This document shows, in pieces, positions 33,663 to 45,565 of a stretch of DNA of 57,713 bases (position 1 is its first letter; each line of letters begins with the position of its first letter). This DNA comes from Deltaproteobacteria bacterium (GTDB lineage Bacteria > Bacillota > Desulfotomaculia > Desulfotomaculales > JAGUVT01): assembly GCA_020062745.1 (NCBI GenBank), contig JAGUVT010000030.1, forward strand, positions 1 to 57,713, in the 5' to 3' direction. The notes beneath the pieces are model-generated. The model was not told the origin of the DNA and ran no database searches. It was given only the letters and a program-made list of their open reading frames with translations. Both the position numbers and the translations under genes were made by a program.

Positions 33663-36417
<2,755 letters not shown>

Positions 36418-36421
<4 letters not shown>

Positions 36422-37422
36422 GGCGTACCCCCTGTAAACTTCTTCTTTGCCGGGTACAAAAGACAGGCGCAGTAACCGAGGCCGGTAAAAAAAGTGGCGG
36501 TCAGGGCAACCAGGAATTTGCGCCCGGCATCCGCCGGCTTTCCCGGAAACTCTTTAAGAAGCGCCAGGGGCATCCGGCAAAAAATATGTTTCAAGTGATC
36601 GTACTCCAGGTCTAAAACCGGCCCGCCGGGAAAATCTTTCTTGTAGGCGCCGGCCAGAAACCGCTTCGTATAGCCGAAATTGAGCGCCCTTTTGACAATG
36701 TTGGAAAACTTGAACTGGCCGGCATAAACTTTGTGGTACACCGGCACCCGGGGATTATAGATGATCCGCCCGGCGACAGCCCGCCGCAGCCGCAGGCAGA
36801 ACTCCACTTCCTCCCCGCTGATAAAAAACCAGCGCCCGGCTTTAAAACATCCCTTCCCCACCGGTCCGATATCGGGCCGGTACAGGCCGGCTTTGAACAA
36901 CGCCTCCCGCCGGTACGAGCAGTTCATCCCGCCCACGTTGCGGATCTCTCTGAGATCATCCCAGTCCCAAACCGTGCAGCCCCACATCCAGTAAAACTCC
37001 CGGGGGAACCAGGACATGGAAGACATCTCCCACAGGGGAACGGCCGGTCCGGTTACGGCCATAACCGAATCATCGGCGTAACTTTTGACCATCTCCTCCG
37101 CCCAGTGCCCGGTTAGCACAACGTCATCGTCGACCAGCGCCACAATCTGCCCGGCGGATCGTTCGATCCCGAGATTGCGCCGTACATTCACCCCGGGCCG
37201 GCCCCTGTTGAGGACGGTGACCAGGTTCATGTTCCGGTTGCGGCCGTACTCCTCCACTTTTCCCATCAATTGCTCCTGGCCCCTGTTGGCCACAAAAACC
37301 ACTTCGATGCGGGGAAATGTCTGCTCCTTTATGCTGTCAAGCAGGTCACGGATATCTTTCCACCGCTCCATGGTGTAGGAAGTAAAAACAATAGAAAGAA
37401 GCGCCTCCGCTAAATCCATCAC
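36418..37422 (-). CDS. GT2 glycosyltransferase (tandem paralogue 2)
   Basis: A 334-residue GT2 enzyme beginning LSIVFTSYTMERWKDIRDLL, with DxD in VALVDDDVVLTGHW, and the segments REIRNVGGMNCSYRRE and GEEVEFCLRLRR. Conservation with the next gene covers the whole length. GTG at 37422 overlaps the stop of the TylF-like gene as GTGA. Donor and acceptor are unknown; being directly upstream of sqdB this pair are the nearest GT2 candidates to use UDP-sulfoquinovose. Confidence 0.88.
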
Positions 37423-38204: not shown

Positions 38205-38368
38205 CTTACCGTGTCATTGCGAGCCGCAGCCGGGGGTCCCTTCGCTTGCTCGGGATAAACTCCGCGTGGCGGGCAGCGAAGCAATCTCGTTCCACCGAAT
38301 GTCATTGCGAGCCGCAGGCGAAGCAATCCGGGCTTAAAGCCCTCGCAATGACAGCGAGAAGGCATTTT
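38205..38368. repeat. Two dispersed TCATTGCGAG-type repeat units
   Basis: Unit 1 starts at 38213 with GTCATTGCGAG and includes GCGAAGCAATCTCGTTCC near 38276-38293. Unit 2 is the short palindrome 38301-38352, with GTCATTGCGAG and CTCGCAATGAC ends. The flanks CTTACCGTGTCATTGCGAGC at 38206 and the GAAGGCATTTTCATCC-like segment after 38357 match those around the copy at 23461-23575, so the mobile unit is larger than the palindrome. The whole 38169-38394 spacer consists mostly of these repeats; it separates the heptose and sulfoquinovose blocks. Confidence 0.82.
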
Positions 38369-38394: not shown

Positions 38395-39078
38395 TTATGA
38401 TCGCTTTTCCGCCAACTTCTCCAGAGCTTTTGCCGCATCACTGACGAATCCCCGCACCGTGTCCCTGGTATACCTGTGATCCGCCATTTTTTGCAGCATC
38501 GGCGGCGGAATGGTGACGACATGGGCTCCGGCCGCCGCCGCCTCCTGAATATCAATCACACCCCGGATGCTGCCCACAATCACCTTCGTGGCATAACCCC
38601 AACGGGTAAGCCAGGCCACAGCCTTACGAATAAGGCCGGGCGCATCATGCCCCTCATCAGCCACCCTGCCGGCAAAAATGCTGGCGTAAGCAGCCCCGGC
38701 CTTGGCCGCCAGAACCACCTGGCCGAAGGAAAGCAGGGCGGTGGCGTTTACTTTTATCCCGTCTTCCGCCAGCACCCGGATCACTTCCAGGCAGGGAACA
38801 CCGTCCTGGTTTAAGACGGGAATTTTAACCACCATGTTCGGCGCCCAGGAAGCAAATTCTCTTGCCTGGGCAAGCATTCCGGAGAGGTCGTTGGTGGTCA
38901 CCTCAACGCTCAACGGCCGGGGGTTAATCAGGGCGGCAATCTCCCTGGCGCCGGCTTCCATATCGTAAACCCCGTCTTTGAGCATAATGCTGGGGTTGGT
39001 GGTTACCCCGTCGGCAATGCCGCAGTCCAGCCACTTTTTAATTTCCTTATGATCGGCGGAATCAATGAAGATTTGCAC
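38395..39078 (-). CDS. Transaldolase / fructose-6-phosphate aldolase-family enzyme
   Basis: A 227-residue short-form transaldolase. The Schiff-base lysine is Lys85 in NMVVKIPV, at the same number as in E. coli FSA. Where FSA has Tyr131, this protein has Phe (Phe135, in SIFAGRV). Classical transaldolases also have Phe there, and that residue is known to favour transaldolase over aldolase activity. It closes the heptose operon, one base after gmhB, so its likely job is making sedoheptulose 7-phosphate for GmhA. A general pentose-phosphate role is the alternative. Confidence 0.86.
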   Translation of the reverse strand: MQIFIDSADHKEIKKWLDCGIADGVTTNPSIMLKDGVYDMEAGAREIAALINPRPLSVEVTTNDLSGMLAQAREFASWAPNMVVKIPVLNQDGVPCLEVIRVLAEDGIKVNATALLSFGQVVLAAKAGAAYASIFAGRVADEGHDAPGLIRKAVAWLTRWGYATKVIVGSIRGVIDIQEAAAAGAHVVTIPPPMLQKMADHRYTRDTVRGFVSDAAKALEKLAEKRS

Positions 39079-39717
39079 TTAAGACTTCCCCCCTCTACAA
39101 ACCAACTCCGCAGCGGCAAGCAGGTCCGCCGCCATATAATCCGGCCGGGCATCTTCTTCCTCCATATACCGGCACAGGTCGCACTTAAACCGTCCCACCA
39201 GGATGGTTTTGCACCCGGCGCCTTTGCCCGCCTTTACATCGGTCAGGCCGTCCCCGATCATCCAGGAGCGGGCCGGATCTACACCAAATTTCCGCGCCGC
39301 CTCTAAAATAAGACCGGGCGCGGGCTTGCGGCAGGAACATTTCCTTCTGTACTTTTTCAGTGCCGCCTCCGGGTGGTGCAGGCAGTAAAAGACGCCGTCC
39401 AGCCGGGCGCCGCGGGCGGCCAGCCCCCGCTCCATCTTTTCCGTCACGGCCCTTAAAAGCGCCGGGGTTGCTTTTCCCTTGGCCATCCCCGGCTGGTTGG
39501 AAACCACCACCACCAGGAAACCGGACAGATTGAGCAGTTCTACACCGGCGGCAGCCGCCGGCAGAAGATTAAACTGTTCAGGACAATGGGGAGAATCCAC
39601 CGTCCCGTGTTCGGGGTCATAAACCAGGGCATTGATTACCCCGTCGCGGTCCAGGAACACCGCCCGGCGCCCGGTCTTTTCAACGTTATAGAAAAATCTT
39701 TCGCGCCTGAGTTCCAT
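39079..39717 (-). CDS. gmhB: D-glycero-D-manno-heptose 1,7-bisphosphate 7-phosphatase
   Basis: A 212-residue HAD phosphatase of the GmhB/histidinol-phosphatase type. The nucleophile motif is AVFLDRDGVIN, followed by VVSNQPGMAKG, and the zinc-binding loop is complete: C and H in FYCLHHPEA, two Cys in RKCSCRKPAPG. The motif IGDGLTDV closes the active site. It removes the 7-phosphate from heptose 1,7-bisphosphate. ATG at 39717 has GAGGGGTGG about 11 bases before it. It follows gmhA by 51 bp. Confidence 0.9.
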   Translation of the reverse strand: MELRRERFFYNVEKTGRRAVFLDRDGVINALVYDPEHGTVDSPHCPEQFNLLPAAAAGVELLNLSGFLVVVVSNQPGMAKGKATPALLRAVTEKMERGLAARGARLDGVFYCLHHPEAALKKYRRKCSCRKPAPGLILEAARKFGVDPARSWMIGDGLTDVKAGKGAGCKTILVGRFKCDLCRYMEEEDARPDYMAADLLAAAELVCRGGKS

Positions 39718-39768
39718 GACTGCAGAACCACCCCTCACCTCAGACAAAATCGAACAACTCATACCCTT

Positions 39769-40377
39769 TTATGCTCCACCGGCAATCCTTTGCCTCAAGG
39801 CCAGGCAGATCAGGTGGTGGACGGCCACGTGCAGGGACTCCACCAGCGGCGTGCCGAGGGGTTCGGCACTGACGGGCACGACCACGCAAGCGTCGGCTTC
39901 TTCTTTCAACAATCCCCCGTCAAATCCGCTTAAACCAACAATTTTTGCGCCCCGCTGCCGGGCCAGGCGGACGGCCCGCACCAGGTTCTGGGACCAGGGT
40001 CCGGCTTCGCCGCTGCCGGAACCGCCGTGTACGGAAATACCGATGAGCACGTCGCCGGCCTCCAGCCACGGTTCCAACTGCCCGGCAAAAATACTGCCAA
40101 AGCCGTGATCGTTGGTCCAGGCGCTGACCAGCGGCACGTTGTCTACCAGGCTCTGCACTTTAAAACGTTTCTTGCCTTTCGCAATGGTGGCTTTGGCCAG
40201 ATCGCAGGCGAAATGGGCGGCAGTGGAAGCAGAGCCGCCGTTGCCCATGATGAAAACACGGGCATCGTTTTCCCAGGCTTCAAAGAGAACCTGGACCGCC
40301 GCCTCGATATCCTGCGAGGGAATTCTGCACATTGTCTCCGTCAGCGCATTAAAATAAGCGTCAATCACTACCAGCAC
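39769..40377 (-). CDS. gmhA: Phosphoheptose isomerase
   Basis: A 202-residue SIS-domain protein of the GmhA family. The ligand loop FIMGNGGSASTAAHFACDL and the Ser/Thr loop GISVHGGSGS are visible; the C-terminal PLVESLHVAVHHLIC carries the family's metal- and substrate-binding Glu and His. GmhA turns sedoheptulose 7-phosphate into D-glycero-D-manno-heptose 7-phosphate, the first committed step of heptose synthesis. Length is normal. It follows hddA by 12 bp in an operon containing the other three pathway enzymes. In the family table it resembles the versions used with HddA/HddC. Confidence 0.9.
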   Translation of the reverse strand: MLVVIDAYFNALTETMCRIPSQDIEAAVQVLFEAWENDARVFIMGNGGSASTAAHFACDLAKATIAKGKKRFKVQSLVDNVPLVSAWTNDHGFGSIFAGQLEPWLEAGDVLIGISVHGGSGSGEAGPWSQNLVRAVRLARQRGAKIVGLSGFDGGLLKEEADACVVVPVSAEPLGTPLVESLHVAVHHLICLALRQRIAGGA

Positions 40378-40389
40378 CCCATTCCCATC

Positions 40390-41370
40390 CTAAAAGTCGG
40401 CGATTACTTTCGAGCCGCCGGGCTCAAAGCAAAGCCCTATTTCCCGCAGCCCTTCTTTTTCCAGGGCCTGCCGCAGACTGTTTTTCTCATGCGCATAAAA
40501 CATGAAGAATCCGCCGCCGCCGGCGCCCATGATCTTTCCGCCGATGGCCCCGTTAGCCCTGGCTGTTTCGTACCACCGGTCTATGGCAGAATTGCTGACT
40601 TTGCCGGAAAGAGTTCTTTTCACCCGCCAGTGCTCATCGAGCAGCGCGCCGAACCGCCGGACATCCCCGGACTGCAGGGCCTCCCTGGTCTGATAGCCGA
40701 TTTCTTTAATCAGGTGAAGGCTTTCGGTCACCTGACGGTCGTTGCGCTCGCAGGCCTCTTTCTGCTCCGGCAGGATTTCGGCGGCGCGCCTGGTAATGCC
40801 GGTATAAAAGAAGAGCAGGTTTTTTTCCAGTTCATCCAGGGTGCCGGCTGGCAGCGCCAGGGGCTCAACATTTACCGTACCGTCTTTTTCAAAAGTAAGG
40901 CATTTGATCCCGCCAAAGGCCGCCATGTACTGATCCTGTTTGCCGACAGGCTCTTTTAAAAGATCTATTTCCAGGCGGCAGGCTTCTTCGGCCAGTTCCT
41001 GCAAGCCGACGGCCTCTCTTTTGTAAGCGTGCAGGGCATGCAGAAGACCCACGCTGAAGCTGCCGGAATTGCCCAGACCGGAGTTTGCCGGCACGTCGGC
41101 CACGGTGGTGATCTCCAGTCCGCCTTTCAAATCGAGCATCTTCAGACCTTCCCGGACAATCGGGTGCTTTATGTCCGCCACGTCGTCCACTGTTTCAGTT
41201 CTGGCGTAACTCACCCGGATGCTGTCCGTAAACCTTTTATTCACCATCACGTAAACATGCTTGTTCACGGCCGCGGCCATCAGAAACCCGCCGTAGCGGG
41301 AGTAATAAGAAGCAAGATCCGTCCCGCCCCCTCCCAGGGACACTCTGACCGGTGTGCGTGTAACGATCAT
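40390..41370 (-). CDS. hddA: D-glycero-alpha-D-manno-heptose 7-phosphate kinase
   Basis: A 326-residue GHMP-family kinase. Motif 1 begins RTPVRVSLGGGGTDLASYY; the ATP loop is VPANSGLGNSGSFSVG and motif 3 is GKIMGAGGGGFFMFYA. These features and the length match HddA of the GDP-heptose pathway rather than galactokinase or the ADP-heptose enzyme HldE. It makes heptose 1,7-bisphosphate with the alpha anomeric phosphate. It lies directly before the guanylyltransferase gene, with no spacer (hddC stop then hddA ATG). Confidence 0.9.
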   Translation of the reverse strand: MIVTRTPVRVSLGGGGTDLASYYSRYGGFLMAAAVNKHVYVMVNKRFTDSIRVSYARTETVDDVADIKHPIVREGLKMLDLKGGLEITTVADVPANSGLGNSGSFSVGLLHALHAYKREAVGLQELAEEACRLEIDLLKEPVGKQDQYMAAFGGIKCLTFEKDGTVNVEPLALPAGTLDELEKNLLFFYTGITRRAAEILPEQKEACERNDRQVTESLHLIKEIGYQTREALQSGDVRRFGALLDEHWRVKRTLSGKVSNSAIDRWYETARANGAIGGKIMGAGGGGFFMFYAHEKNSLRQALEKEGLREIGLCFEPGGSKVIADF

Positions 41371-42081
41371 CTATTTCAAACCCTTCTTTCCCGCCATAAA
41401 TCGTCTGAATTCCGCCAGCCCTCTCCAGGAGCCGACTTCATAGAACCGCTCCGGAACCTCATAGGCCAGCATTTCTTTTCTTTCCGCCAGCTTTGCCAGC
41501 ACTTTTTCCAGGGGGTGGAATTCTCCCGCCGGAATCAGGTCCAGGACGGATTTCCGGAAGAGCAGCGCGCCGTAATCAATGTAAATCATGCTTTTTGCCG
41601 GCTCGTTTTTGCTGTATCCGGCCACCAGGTTTCCTGCCAGCGCCACATTGCTTTGCCCATACCGACCGCAGTTTCTGTAAACGGTCATCAAAGCCGTCTT
41701 GTCAAAGCTCTTGAAGTAACGGTAAACAGCGGCAAAATCGATTGATAAGTACGAATCCCCATACATCACGAAAAACTCGTCTGCCAGCAGCGGACCGGCA
41801 TTTTTCAGGGCGCCGGCGGTGCCTAAAAGAACGCTCCCCTCCCTGCTGTACTGAAGCCGCACGCCAAGGGAAGCGCCGTCCCGGAAATACGCCTCGATCC
41901 GCTCTCCCAGGTAGCCGGTGCAGAGCACAATATTCTTGATTCCCTGTGCGGCCAGGAACTCAAGCTGGTAAGCCAGAAACGGCCGGCCGCAGATCATCAG
42001 CAGGGATTTAGGTGTTTTTAGGGACAGGGGCCGCAGCCTGGTGGCCAGGCCGCCGGCCAGGATCACCACCTGCACGTTCAA
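41371..42081 (-). CDS. hddC: D-glycero-alpha-D-manno-heptose 1-phosphate guanylyltransferase
   Basis: A 236-residue nucleotidyltransferase with the signature ILAGGLATRLRPLSLKTPKSLL at its N-terminus, the metal Asp in VMYGDSYLSID, and the FEVGSWRGL-type end (here FYEVGSWRGLAEF). It would join heptose 1-phosphate to GMP, giving GDP-D-glycero-alpha-D-manno-heptose, the donor used for S-layer glycans in Aneurinibacillus. The order with hddA, gmhA and gmhB makes the assignment strong, although sugar-1-phosphate nucleotidyltransferases are hard to tell apart alone. ATG overlaps the upstream stop as ATGA. Confidence 0.88.
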   Translation of the reverse strand: MNVQVVILAGGLATRLRPLSLKTPKSLLMICGRPFLAYQLEFLAAQGIKNIVLCTGYLGERIEAYFRDGASLGVRLQYSREGSVLLGTAGALKNAGPLLADEFFVMYGDSYLSIDFAAVYRYFKSFDKTALMTVYRNCGRYGQSNVALAGNLVAGYSKNEPAKSMIYIDYGALLFRKSVLDLIPAGEFHPLEKVLAKLAERKEMLAYEVPERFYEVGSWRGLAEFRRFMAGKKGLK

Positions 42082-43064
42082 TCCCCCCGCCCGGCGGATG
42101 CATAAAGCATGGCAGCCAGTTTCAGGGCTTCCAGGCCGTCCCGCCCGCTGCCCGAAGGCTCCCTGCCCTCTTCAACGGCAGCGCAAAACTCCTGCCACTC
42201 ATCCCGCCACGAGCGGTCTGCGCCCCGAAACTCAATCACCGTTTCGGTAAAGGGGCGGCTGAAATCCCTCCGGCCCAGCACGGCGCGCTCGCCGCCGTAA
42301 CTCCCGCCCAGTCCTTCCACCGTCACGTATCCTTCCTTCCCGTAAACCTCCAGAGAAAAGAGGTTTTTCCATTGGGTCCAGGAGACATGCAGGGAGGCCA
42401 CCTGGCCTTTTTCCGTTTTGAGCAGTCCGAAAGCGTTATCTTCGATGGGTGAGACAGGCCAGAAACCAGTTGCGGTTACCCCCTTCACCGTAGTAAACTC
42501 CCCCAGGAAATAGCGGCAGAGGTCTAAAGCGTGCATCCCCTGGTCCATCAACTGCCCGCCACCGGCAATTTCGGCCCTGGTTCGCCACTCCCGCTCATAG
42601 CCGGACCGCCCCCCGATGCCGTAACGCAGGCGCAAAAATACGACTTCCCCGGTTTCTCCTCCGTCAACCCAGGCGCGGGCCTGCCTTATGCCGGGGTGAT
42701 GGCGCAGGTTGAAGCCGCATTTCAGCACTATTCCGCCGGCCTGTGCCGCTTCCACCATTCTCCGCCCTTCGGCATAGCTTGTGGCCAGAGGCTTTTCACA
42801 TAGGACGTGCTTGCCGGCTCCGGCCGCGGCAACTGTAACCGGCGCGTGCAGGTGGGGCGGGGTGCAGACCAGAACAGCGTCTACATCCGCCGCTATAACC
42901 TCTTCCCAGGCCGTTGTAAAAACCGCCCCTGTCGCGGCTGCCAGATCCAACGCCGCCTGCCGGTTGCTATCCGCCACCATGGTTATTTTCGCTCCGCCCG
43001 CATCAATAACGGCTCTTGCCCGCCGCCTCCCCTGGAGGCCGGCGCCGATTATGCCTACCCGCAA
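42078..43064 (-). CDS. Gfo/Idh/MocA-family oxidoreductase
   Basis: A 328-residue NAD(P)-dependent sugar dehydrogenase. The Rossmann loop VGIIGAGLQGRRRARAVI is at the N-terminus, and the catalytic Lys is in HVLCEKPLATS. The C-terminal alpha/beta domain, with GGQLMDQGMHALDL, is complete. Such enzymes reduce keto-sugars or oxidise nucleotide-sugars at C3. TTG at 43064 is chosen for GGGGGAGAGG just before it; upstream in-frame codons lie in the SDR gene. Placed immediately before hddC, it may modify GDP-heptose or a 4-keto-6-deoxy form. Confidence 0.84.
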   Translation of the reverse strand: MRVGIIGAGLQGRRRARAVIDAGGAKITMVADSNRQAALDLAAATGAVFTTAWEEVIAADVDAVLVCTPPHLHAPVTVAAAGAGKHVLCEKPLATSYAEGRRMVEAAQAGGIVLKCGFNLRHHPGIRQARAWVDGGETGEVVFLRLRYGIGGRSGYEREWRTRAEIAGGGQLMDQGMHALDLCRYFLGEFTTVKGVTATGFWPVSPIEDNAFGLLKTEKGQVASLHVSWTQWKNLFSLEVYGKEGYVTVEGLGGSYGGERAVLGRRDFSRPFTETVIEFRGADRSWRDEWQEFCAAVEEGREPSGSGRDGLEALKLAAMLYASAGRGD

Positions 43065-43080
43065 TTCCTCTCCCCCCGCC

Positions 43081-43902
43081 TCAAGGTTTTTCTGCAACAC
43101 GGCGCAGTGCATACAGGTCGCTTTTCATAATCCGGTCGATCCGCTCCGGAATGGAACGCCAGTCGTCCCAGACTGCGCTGATCAGCCGCCCGGTCAGCCG
43201 GCCGGATTCTTCCGAAGCCAGAAAAACAGCCAGTTCGGCCGGTACCCATGAAGGGGTGCCGCCTGTTTCCAGTTGCTTTTCAGCCCCGCGCAAAGCTTCT
43301 TCTCCCGCTGCCGCCCCGGCCGTCAGGACCTCTTCGAGCATCCTGGTATTAACCGCACCGGGCGCGATGGCGTTAACCTGAATGTTACAGTCCCTTAACT
43401 CCGCCGCCAGCGTTTCCGTCAAACGGACCACCGCCGCTTTCGACGCCGCATAGGCGCTGAAGCGGGGGCGGGGCGAGGCGGCCCCCCCGCCGGAGAGGTT
43501 GATGATCTTGCCCCTCCCCCGGCGGATCATATGCGGCAGCACCGAACGGCAGCAAAGAAAGACACCGCCGAGGTTGATCCGGACCGCCTCCAGCCATTCG
43601 TCAGGGTCATTTTCCCACAAGGGGCCGACCGGGGGCTGGACGCCGGCGTTGTTTACCAGGATATCCACCTGTCCGGCCGCGGCCATTACGGCATCAACCA
43701 CCCTTGCCACATCCGCCCGCCTGGAAACATCACCGGTTAAAGCAAGCGCACGGCCGATTTCCGCCGCAGCGGCCTCCACTTCGGCCGCCGTGCGGGCAAC
43801 CAGGCAGGGGTAAGCCCCCTCCCGGGCAAAAGCCCGGGCAATGGCCCGGCCGATACCCCGCCCGCCGCCGGTTATAATTGCCACCTTGCCTTCAAGCTTC
43901 AC
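43081..43902 (-). CDS. Short-chain dehydrogenase/reductase
   Basis: A 273-residue classical SDR. NAD(P) binds at IITGGGRGIGRAIA; NNAG is present; the catalytic Ser is in IINLSGGGA and Tyr/Lys in SAYAASKAAV. The specificity loop PGAVNTRMLEE is normal. The C-terminus extends about 20 residues beyond the minimum. GTG at 43902 overlaps the end of the epimerase gene by 11 bp. Its neighbours suggest reduction of a keto-sugar nucleotide, but classical SDRs have many substrates. Confidence 0.84.
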   Translation of the reverse strand: MKLEGKVAIITGGGRGIGRAIARAFAREGAYPCLVARTAAEVEAAAAEIGRALALTGDVSRRADVARVVDAVMAAAGQVDILVNNAGVQPPVGPLWENDPDEWLEAVRINLGGVFLCCRSVLPHMIRRGRGKIINLSGGGAASPRPRFSAYAASKAAVVRLTETLAAELRDCNIQVNAIAPGAVNTRMLEEVLTAGAAAGEEALRGAEKQLETGGTPSWVPAELAVFLASEESGRLTGRLISAVWDDWRSIPERIDRIMKSDLYALRRVAEKP

Positions 43903-44860
43903 TTAAGTGCGCCCTCCAGTAGGCCAGCAGGTCGGACAATGTCTGCTCCATCGGTATTTCGAGCCGCCAGCCGAGGCGGTACAAATCCGTACAGTCCCCG
44001 ATATAAACGGGATCGTCATACGGCCTCATCTTTTCAGGCACTACCTCGTATTTAACCGGAAAACCGGCCAGGGAAACCATCTTCTCCAGCACTTCCCTCA
44101 TCTGATAGGCCCGGCCCGAACAGAGATTGTAAACTTTGCCGTATTCCCCCCGCCGGGCCAGCAGCCAGAGCGCCTTCACCGCATCCCGGCCGTCGGTAAA
44201 ATCCCGTACCGTCTCCAGGTTGCCCACTTTTAACACCTTTTCCAGGCCTTTCTCTATTGCCACGATTCCCCTGGCAAAATCAGAGCAGGCGTCGGCAACC
44301 TTGCGCGGGCCGGTCATATTGAAGGGACGGACCCGGATGATCTTCATACCGTAAACCTGCCGGTAAAAGAAACCCAGCAGATCCTCGGCGGCTTTGCTCA
44401 CGGAATACATGCTGGTAGGCCGGAAGGCACGGTTAACCTGCAGCGGCATTTCTTCCATAACACAGGGACCATAGACCGAACTGGACCCCATTATTTCGAT
44501 AACCGGGTCAAGCCCCTCTTTCCTGATGCTTTCCAGCAGGTAAAAGGTGCCCAGCACATTTGTTTTAAGCGTTTCTTCCGGTTCCTCCCAGGACACGGTA
44601 ACAAAGCTCTGCGCCGCCAGGTGGAAAACAATTTCCGGCCTTACCCGCCTGACGATTCCGGATACTTCGGCATTTTCTTTTAGATCACACGGCAAAAAAG
44701 TCATGCGTCCCCGCAAGTGCTCAATATTTTTTGGATTGCCGTAAACCAGAGCATAAACCTTAAGACCTTCTTTTACCAGCAAATCAGCCAGGTGTGAGCC
44801 GATAAACCCCTCGCCGCCTGTTATGAGGCATGTTTTCAAGCTCTTTCTCTCCATTCTCAT
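43892..44860 (-). CDS. GDP-6-deoxy-lyxo-4-hexulose reductase-like (Rmd/GMD) extended SDR
   Basis: A 322-residue extended SDR. NAD binds at ITGGEGFIGSHLADLL; the catalytic residues are in EIMGSSSVYGP and SMYSVSKAAEDLL. RPFNMTGPRK, VGNLETVRDFTDGRDAV and YNLCSGRAYQM are the hallmarks of the Rmd/GMD group that acts on GDP sugars. With GDP-heptose made by the next genes, it may take part in forming a 6-deoxy-heptose, as DmhA/DmhB do in Yersinia. Start given at 44860, where ATG overlaps the upstream stop as ATGA; TTG at 44839 with GGAG before it is an alternative. Confidence 0.82.
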   Translation of the reverse strand: MRMERKSLKTCLITGGEGFIGSHLADLLVKEGLKVYALVYGNPKNIEHLRGRMTFLPCDLKENAEVSGIVRRVRPEIVFHLAAQSFVTVSWEEPEETLKTNVLGTFYLLESIRKEGLDPVIEIMGSSSVYGPCVMEEMPLQVNRAFRPTSMYSVSKAAEDLLGFFYRQVYGMKIIRVRPFNMTGPRKVADACSDFARGIVAIEKGLEKVLKVGNLETVRDFTDGRDAVKALWLLARRGEYGKVYNLCSGRAYQMREVLEKMVSLAGFPVKYEVVPEKMRPYDDPVYIGDCTDLYRLGWRLEIPMEQTLSDLLAYWRAHLSEA

Positions 44861-45555
44861 AAACTGCAAAACCGTTCCCTGATCACCGTCTTGATTGCTT
44901 TCCACCCCTGCCTGAAACTGGGGGCGTTTGTTTCACCATTGATCCTCCCCCGGTCCCGGTGCGGCACTTCCCGGATCTTCAACCCGGCCTTAATGGCCCG
45001 CACGTTAATCAGCGGCTCGTCTTCAAACCCGTCGGCGGTAAAATTGATTCTCCGGAAAGCCTCTTTCCAAAAGGCGTTATAGCCTGAACAAAGGTCGGTA
45101 TAGTTTCTGCGGTAAAGAATATTGGCCGTGGTAACAATGAGCCAGTTGCCGAATATGCGGTGAGCGGGCTTCTTTTCCGGCCGGCCCAGGGCAAAACGGG
45201 AGCCTTTCGCAAACTCATACCCGTTCAGCAAAGGCTCAATAAAACCGGGCATTTCTTCCGGGTCGGTGGTGCCGTCCGCATCAAGGGTGACGATAATATC
45301 TCCCGTCGCCTGTTCGATACCGCACTGCAGGGCGTCGCCCTTGCCGCGGCCGGGCTGGTATATGATCCGGGCGTCCGGCCGCAGTTGCCGGGCGATGGAA
45401 ACCGTGTTATCAGTGGAGCGACCGTCCACAATTAAAACTTCGTGTACGGTCGCCGGTATTTTGGGTAACACATACGGGAGATTGGCTTCTTCGTTAAGCG
45501 TGCAGATCAGCACCGTGATCTTCGGCCGGCAAAAAAAGCCGCTTTGTTCCGGCAT
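44857..45555 (-). CDS. GT2 glycosyltransferase (DPM1-like)
   Basis: A 232-residue GT2 enzyme of the polyprenol-phosphate sugar transferase type. It begins ITVLICTLNEEANLPYVL; the metal motif is VTLDADGTTDPEE. A glycine-rich loop GRGKGDALQCGIEQATGD and the LCSGYNAFWKEAFRRI segment fit the DPM1-like group. There are no membrane anchors. ATG at 45555, with GGGTGGG upstream, is preferred to GTG at 45564. It leads the heptose block, so it may transfer heptose or a hexose to polyprenyl phosphate. Confidence 0.87.
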   Translation of the reverse strand: MPEQSGFFCRPKITVLICTLNEEANLPYVLPKIPATVHEVLIVDGRSTDNTVSIARQLRPDARIIYQPGRGKGDALQCGIEQATGDIIVTLDADGTTDPEEMPGFIEPLLNGYEFAKGSRFALGRPEKKPAHRIFGNWLIVTTANILYRRNYTDLCSGYNAFWKEAFRRINFTADGFEDEPLINVRAIKAGLKIREVPHRDRGRINGETNAPSFRQGWKAIKTVIRERFCSL

Positions 45556-45565
45556 GGCGCCCACC

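Follow-up and report, generated by a model that had tools for sequence, protein, structure and literature searches.

A transaldolase-linked sugar-nucleotide operon as a possible route to an activated higher aldose

Why should a gene set that resembles a heptose pathway carry a transaldolase of its own? The question is raised by contig JAGUVT010000030.1 of a Deltaproteobacteria bacterium (assembly GCA_020062745.1), analyzed over a stretch of 57,713 nucleotides referred to here as the window, in which five minus-strand open reading frames (ORFs) run head to tail from position 42081 to 38395 in the order hddC, hddA, gmhA, gmhB, and a short transaldolase gene (tal). The ORF map and the Pfam matches, all above gathering scores (NTP_transferase, GHMP kinase N and C, SIS_2, HAD hydrolase, and TAL_FSA), confirmed the contiguity of these genes described in the first-pass annotation, which had read them as a complete GDP-D-glycero-D-manno-heptose pathway with its own supply of sedoheptulose 7-phosphate. 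By analogy with lincosamide biosynthesis, the operon may encode a route that opens with the transaldolase and leads to a higher aldose, most likely one of eight carbons, in nucleotide-activated form. This octose route has a probability of about one half and was judged likelier than a GDP-heptose pathway making its own sedoheptulose 7-phosphate. The five genes, together referred to as the cassette, and the altered loop of the isomerase are as follows.

38395..39078, minus strand: short transaldolase (TAL_FSA), 227 amino acids (Pfam, alignment, and AlphaFold 2 [AF2] model)
39079..39762, minus strand: HAD-IIIA phosphatase, GmhB-like, with an E. coli-type long Zn-loop CLHHPEAALKKYRRKCSCRKP (Pfam, NCBIfam, and PDB search)
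39769..40377, minus strand: SIS ketose/aldose phosphate isomerase, GmhA-like, outside the canonical GmhA clade (Pfam, tree, and AF2 model)
39994..40032, minus strand: rebuilt phosphate loop of the isomerase, residues about 116-128, within SVHGGSGSGEAGPWS (alignment and AF2 model)
40390..41370, minus strand: GHMP sugar-phosphate kinase, HddA-like (Pfam, NCBIfam, and PDB search)
41371..42081, minus strand: predicted RmlA/HddC-type sugar-1-phosphate nucleotidylyltransferase (Pfam and NCBIfam)

The stop codon TAA of gmhB directly abuts the transaldolase start codon GTG; the adjacency noted earlier therefore stands, with an intergenic gap of 0 bases in place of the one base then given. The cassette forms the 3' end of a coupled operon of nine genes on the minus strand (45564-38395), which is embedded in a large surface-glycan region and is followed by a 226-bp gap downstream of tal. 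Genes for a GT2 glycosyltransferase, a GDP-6-deoxy-4-keto-hexose reductase (RMD)-like protein, a short-chain dehydrogenase/reductase (SDR), and a Gfo/Idh oxidoreductase lie upstream of hddC, with overlaps of -4 to -49 bases in each pair through hddC.

The catalytic set of the transaldolase was located by alignment at E59, K85, F135, R138, S170, and R172, equivalent to Glu59, Lys85, Phe131, Arg134, Ser166, and Arg168 in the numbering of fructose-6-phosphate aldolase (FSA). Glu instead of FSA Gln59 and Phe instead of FSA Tyr131 are both as in true transaldolases, and the earlier reading of the Phe as favoring transaldolase chemistry was upheld. Published work cited in PMC13259622 states that aldolase and transaldolase activity can be turned into one another by exchange of the residues that surround the catalytic water, which makes the choice of transaldolase over aldolase sound, and a predicted chemistry of the transaldolase type, not of the aldolase type, is supported for the window enzyme. 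The Tyr-to-Phe change separates these two chemistries and is silent on a C4 versus a C5 acceptor. The AF2 model (predicted local distance difference test [pLDDT] score, 91.8) had the Thermotoga maritima transaldolase 1vpx as its best PDB match. At the position of Ala165 in FSA and TalC the window enzyme has G169, and window-type transaldolases thus carry naturally the Ala165Gly substitution that was engineered in E. coli FSA for a roomier acceptor space (PMC3962088). A pocket signature (Ala110 and Ile/Val130) was considered as proof of a C5 acceptor and rejected, since free-standing TIGR02134 enzymes have it too.

The supply of sedoheptulose 7-phosphate, earlier offered as the reason for the transaldolase, is not borne out as such by the remainder of the genome, in which a canonical TalC (G000:C52:21575-22210; 38% identical to the cassette transaldolase) is encoded next to a fructose-bisphosphate aldolase-like gene and transketolase is encoded as split N/C pairs on contigs C146 and C42. 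A further transaldolase was likewise found in 9 of the 9 other cassette genomes checked. The first-pass annotation had itself named a second transaldolase/transketolase set that makes the cassette enzyme dispensable as an argument against its proposal; the set is present, and the argument applies in part.

The comparative search for the transaldolase-gmhB pair suggested at that time was productive, and the cassette recurred in at least five phyla, with differing gene orders, and in uncultured viral contigs, so that the linkage is not due to chance. Loci with transaldolases 63-69% identical to that of the window and with the same neighbors were found in Chloroflexota and Ca. Aminicenantes, additional cassettes in Chloroflexota and Pseudomonadota were recovered by isomerase-driven searches, and plasmid records of Lawsonia intracellularis and Rhizobium jaguaris carried the cassette as well. 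As in the window, SDR and Gfo/Idh genes go with the cassette in Rhizobium, Lawsonia, and the genomes G531, G718, and G748; they are divergent in locus L010. Because only 1 of 398 genomes from the phylum of the window has the window-type isomerase (at 1e-30), the cassette was likely acquired horizontally. Judged by gene content, the window may come from an anaerobic member of the Bacillota. The recurring linkage and the catalytic set, which is intact in all cassette transaldolases including 66/66 viral copies examined, support a transaldolase that would be dedicated to the cassette pathway. That a housekeeping transaldolase came to lie by chance behind a heptose operon, with no role in the pathway, would agree with the commonness of transaldolases and with the rarity of the cassette in its own phylum, but this explanation is very improbable and is already contradicted by the comparative data, namely, the linkage across phyla, gene orders, and viral loci and the separate canonical TalC in the genome. 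Clusters on two Streptomyces plasmids (L013 and L014) contained a GmhA-like SIS gene, a HAD hydrolase gene, and glycogen-synthase-like and galT-like genes; these matches were considered as lincosamide (Lmb/Ccb) genes and rejected as other clusters.

The second altered enzyme is the isomerase. Canonical GmhA has the loop S-T-S-G-x-S, which binds the terminal phosphate, and the window isomerase has S-V-H-G-G with a 9-residue insertion relative to STSGNS. Throughout the cassette clade the loop reads S-V-[HG]-G-G with an insertion of 6-9 residues, in a 9-residue SVHGG and a 6-residue SVGGG subclade, and Glu-[Ser/Ala] is found where canonical GmhA has Gln-Glu. The metal-ligand positions H61, E65, Q172, and H180 of canonical GmhA are occupied by H, D, E, and H in the window enzyme. 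Isomerases outside the clade in the alignment, both nonlinked and canonical, keep S-x-S-G-x-S and lack the insertion, where the confidence of the AF2 model (pLDDT 86.5; best PDB matches, GmhA) was lowest.

In a 55-row isomerase tree, in which canonical GmhA formed a separate clade, 14 rows fell on one side of a branch (support, 99/100), including all 12 transaldolase-linked rows; the remaining two were a locus at a contig edge and one from G1010, where a cassette-type transaldolase is absent. The transaldolase gene was linked in 12/15 interpretable loci of the clade versus 0/15 outside it (Fisher p about 1e-5), counts that are sensitive to contig ends and to the classification by hand of loci recovered by isomerase or kinase searches, three of which also came up in the transaldolase search. 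Loci L006-L011 were first found through the transaldolase itself. Since the rebuilt loop is the one that binds the terminal phosphate in GmhA, the transaldolase and the isomerase, which would share one ketose phosphate, appear to have been altered together. An alternative context of the cassette isomerase clade is seen in L145 (8674-12145), where an SVGGG-type isomerase without tal lies beside a radical-SAM-like gene and a gene for an HldE-like kinase/nucleotidyltransferase (assigned by eye).

In the proposed octose route, whose substrates, chain length, nucleotide, and destination we infer, fructose 6-phosphate (or sedoheptulose 7-phosphate) would donate a C3 unit, which the transaldolase would attach to ribose 5-phosphate. 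The resulting octulose 8-phosphate would be converted by the SIS isomerase to octose 8-phosphate. The GHMP kinase would add the 1-phosphate, the HAD phosphatase would take off the 8-phosphate, and the nucleotidyltransferase would make the nucleoside diphosphate (NDP)-octose, assumed to be the GDP form. The SDR, Gfo/Idh, and RMD-like enzymes probably modify the NDP-octose, and the glycosyltransferases of the surrounding cluster may place the octose in a surface glycan. The GDP-octose of lincomycin is made by the transaldolase LmbR, the octulose 8-phosphate isomerase LmbN, the C8 kinase LmbP (a step predicted in that work), the C8 phosphatase LmbK, and the C8 guanylyltransferase LmbO, and the cluster holds further oxidoreductase/epimerase genes (PMC4351081). 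LmbR acts on fructose 6-phosphate or sedoheptulose 7-phosphate with ribose 5-phosphate (PMC5854111).

The strongest competitor is a pathway to GDP-D-glycero-D-manno-heptose or another heptose, in which the dedicated transaldolase makes sedoheptulose 7-phosphate locally and the isomerase loop would go with another epimer or another assembly rather than with a longer chain; this pathway is possible, with a lower probability than the octose. The GmhA, HddA, GmhB, and HddC families are all represented at the family level, the kinase is closest in PDB to the heptose kinases 3k85 and 4n3o, the phosphatase is closest to GmhB, and the isomerase has the GmhA fold. All five proteins nevertheless score under the NCBIfam equivalog cut-offs of the heptose models or TalC (isomerase, TIGR00441, 92 versus 209 bits; kinase, NF049969, 173 versus 600; phosphatase, PRK08942, 141 versus 178, and NF050049, 70 versus 250; nucleotidyltransferase, NF049965, 90 versus 300; transaldolase, TIGR00875, 152 versus 246), a weak test in that the L008 and L009 copies, although more canonical, likewise fall short of the cut-offs for HddA and GmhA. 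The names gmhA, hddA, hddC, and gmhB are therefore family-level names only. The nucleotidyltransferase scores better with MurU and mannose-1-phosphate guanylyltransferase models than with HddC. The Zn-loop of GmhB was tried as a cassette marker and rejected, being long in the window type and short in others and hence not diagnostic.

The complete heptose pathway of the first-pass annotation is called into question by these scores, by the rebuilt isomerase loop, and by the gmhB-gmhA-hddA sets of more canonical type that immediately adjoin the cassette in two relatives (L008 and L009). Together with the redundant transaldolases and a canonical GmhA elsewhere in 4/9 cassette genomes, the latter sets and the altered isomerase point away from plain D,D-heptose. 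We know of no characterized heptose cluster with a transaldolase gene, and the combination was not found in text searches of the open library.

Several observations weigh against the octose, some of them directly in favor of a heptose. Five of the nine cassette genomes are without a canonical GmhA, and in these the cassette itself could make the heptose. A bona fide GDP-mannose 4,6-dehydratase (Gmd) gene adjoins the cassette in L010, which would be in keeping with a GDP sugar of manno configuration. Free-standing TIGR02134 transaldolases of S. aureus and lactobacilli fall in one clade (100/100) with the cassette transaldolases, so that membership of this clade does not single out a C5 acceptor, and Ala165, following Trp164, is retained in the Rhizobium, Lawsonia, and most viral cassette enzymes; for both reasons, the transaldolase alone does not decide chain length. 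Three members of the isomerase clade (L144, L145, and L148) have no tal nearby. To our knowledge, linear octoses are very rare in bacterial surface glycans.

The viral copies bear on a further explanation. The window isomerase had no match in the IMG/VR viral contigs, and the Rhizobium isomerase matched 139 of them, of which 80 were kept (L157-L236). All 80 viral isomerases have the SVGGG loop, and tal lies near the isomerase gene in 74/80 loci, usually about 0.5 kb downstream, with four of the six exceptions near contig ends. A frequent block comprises genes for a cytidylyltransferase-like protein, isomerase, HAD protein, transaldolase, glycosyltransferase, GHMP kinase, and exonuclease, and neighboring genes match phage families, e.g., head maturation protease and exonuclease. 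The carriers are uncultured, apparently T4-like phages; the cassette isomerase had no match among 50,697 cultured phage records. Binning errors are possible in single contigs, but hardly for a syntenic block across dozens of them.

Many viral cassettes pair with the cytidylyltransferase-like gene and not with an RmlA-type enzyme, and the phosphate loop varies in length and sequence among subclades. Both would suit a transaldolase and isomerase acting on another ketose phosphate, from another acceptor aldehyde or of other stereochemistry, and leading to an unknown NDP-sugar. This explanation is unlikely, given that the usual cellular acceptors are ribose 5-phosphate and erythrose 4-phosphate. 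The sole precedent with the same five steps, moreover, uses ribose 5-phosphate (PMC5854111).

The four genes upstream of the cassette in the operon are as follows.

42078..43112, minus strand: Gfo/Idh/MocA oxidoreductase, cassette-linked in several loci (Pfam and locus comparison)
43081..43902, minus strand: FabG-like short-chain dehydrogenase, cassette-linked in the same loci as Gfo/Idh (Pfam, NCBIfam, and locus comparison)
43892..44905, minus strand: extended SDR, closest to RMD (2pk3) (Pfam and PDB search)
44857..45564, minus strand: GT2 glycosyltransferase, the first gene of the operon (Pfam and gene spacing)

The extended SDR lacks the dehydratase Glu (GSSSVYG) and is therefore predicted to be a reductase or epimerase. 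Elsewhere in the genome, a bona fide Gmd gene (424 bits) with a second related SDR gene beside it (G000:C103:10561-12444; L149 and L150) could feed this RMD-like reductase. Within the glycan cluster, an SQD1-like UDP-sulfoquinovose synthase gene (34225-35421, minus strand; NF041015, 488 bits versus a cut-off of 575) suggests a sulfonated sugar in the surface glycan of the organism. The idea of a sulfofructose transaldolase, which came from this nearby gene, was rejected at 28% identity in the structure search, and the SQD1-like gene was not among the matches around the cassette in the other loci examined. Two adjacent, similar GT2 genes (329 and 334 amino acids; 35432-37422, minus strand) look like a tandem duplication. 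In the gap after tal, a 21-nucleotide repeat (TGTCATTGCGAGCCGCAG..) is present in two copies 88 bases apart (38212-38320), with no further copy in the window.

Annotation tends to label gene sets of this kind as heptose pathways. Should the transaldolase be a sign of another chain length, anaerobes, plant symbionts, and phages would have a class of surface sugars that is being misnamed, and tal together with the isomerase loop would provide a simple sequence test for nonheptose sets. An NDP-octose cassette is so far known only from lincosamide antibiotics, and nothing relevant on a GDP-octose surface pathway was found in paper searches of the open library. Tentatively, such cassettes may be common in the surface-glycan clusters of five or more phyla and may be carried, with a glycosyltransferase, by uncultured, T4-like-looking phages, and octoses may be common and overlooked in bacterial, possibly also phage, glycoconjugates; the octose route, if true, would also hint at the origin of its lincosamide counterpart.

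Among known systems, the talC auxiliary metabolic gene of cyanophages is likewise a phage-borne short transaldolase, about 32% identical to the viral cassette enzyme. With the TalC/FSA family (B. subtilis TalC, T. maritima 1vpx, and E. coli FSA) the window enzyme shares the fold and the catalytic residues, Glu59 and Phe131 being transaldolase-like, but window-type transaldolases form a separate clade (100/100) and have Ala at 110, Ile at 130, and Gly at 165 relative to TalC. The S-[IV]-F-A-G-R motif is common to the staphylococcal TIGR02134 type and the cassette transaldolases; the Rhizobium cassette copy passes the TIGR02134 cut-off (334 versus 282 bits), whereas the window enzyme scores 136 versus 282, and the staphylococcal-type copies seen, unlike the cassette copies, do not adjoin sugar-nucleotide genes. 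The GDP-D-glycero-D-manno-heptose pathway of the Aneurinibacillus S-layer type has four enzyme families in common with the cassette and the same isomerase-kinase-phosphatase-nucleotidyltransferase logic; the cassette differs in its extra transaldolase, the isomerase loop insertion, and its sub-cut-off proteins, and one locus can hold both it and a set of more canonical type. From the lincosamide pathway the cassette differs in its location in surface-glycan clusters and uncultured phages, not in an antibiotic cluster, in the absence of the carrier-protein domain that is fused to LmbN in lincosamides, and in that no aminotransferase corresponding to LmbS, which is required for the lincosamide and not for the octose itself, was found among the nine operon genes. 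In terms of predicted activities, the cassette and the LmbR-LmbN-LmbP-LmbK-LmbO pathway of lincomycin and celesticetin share the same five clustered activities, accompanied in both by oxidoreductase/epimerase genes.

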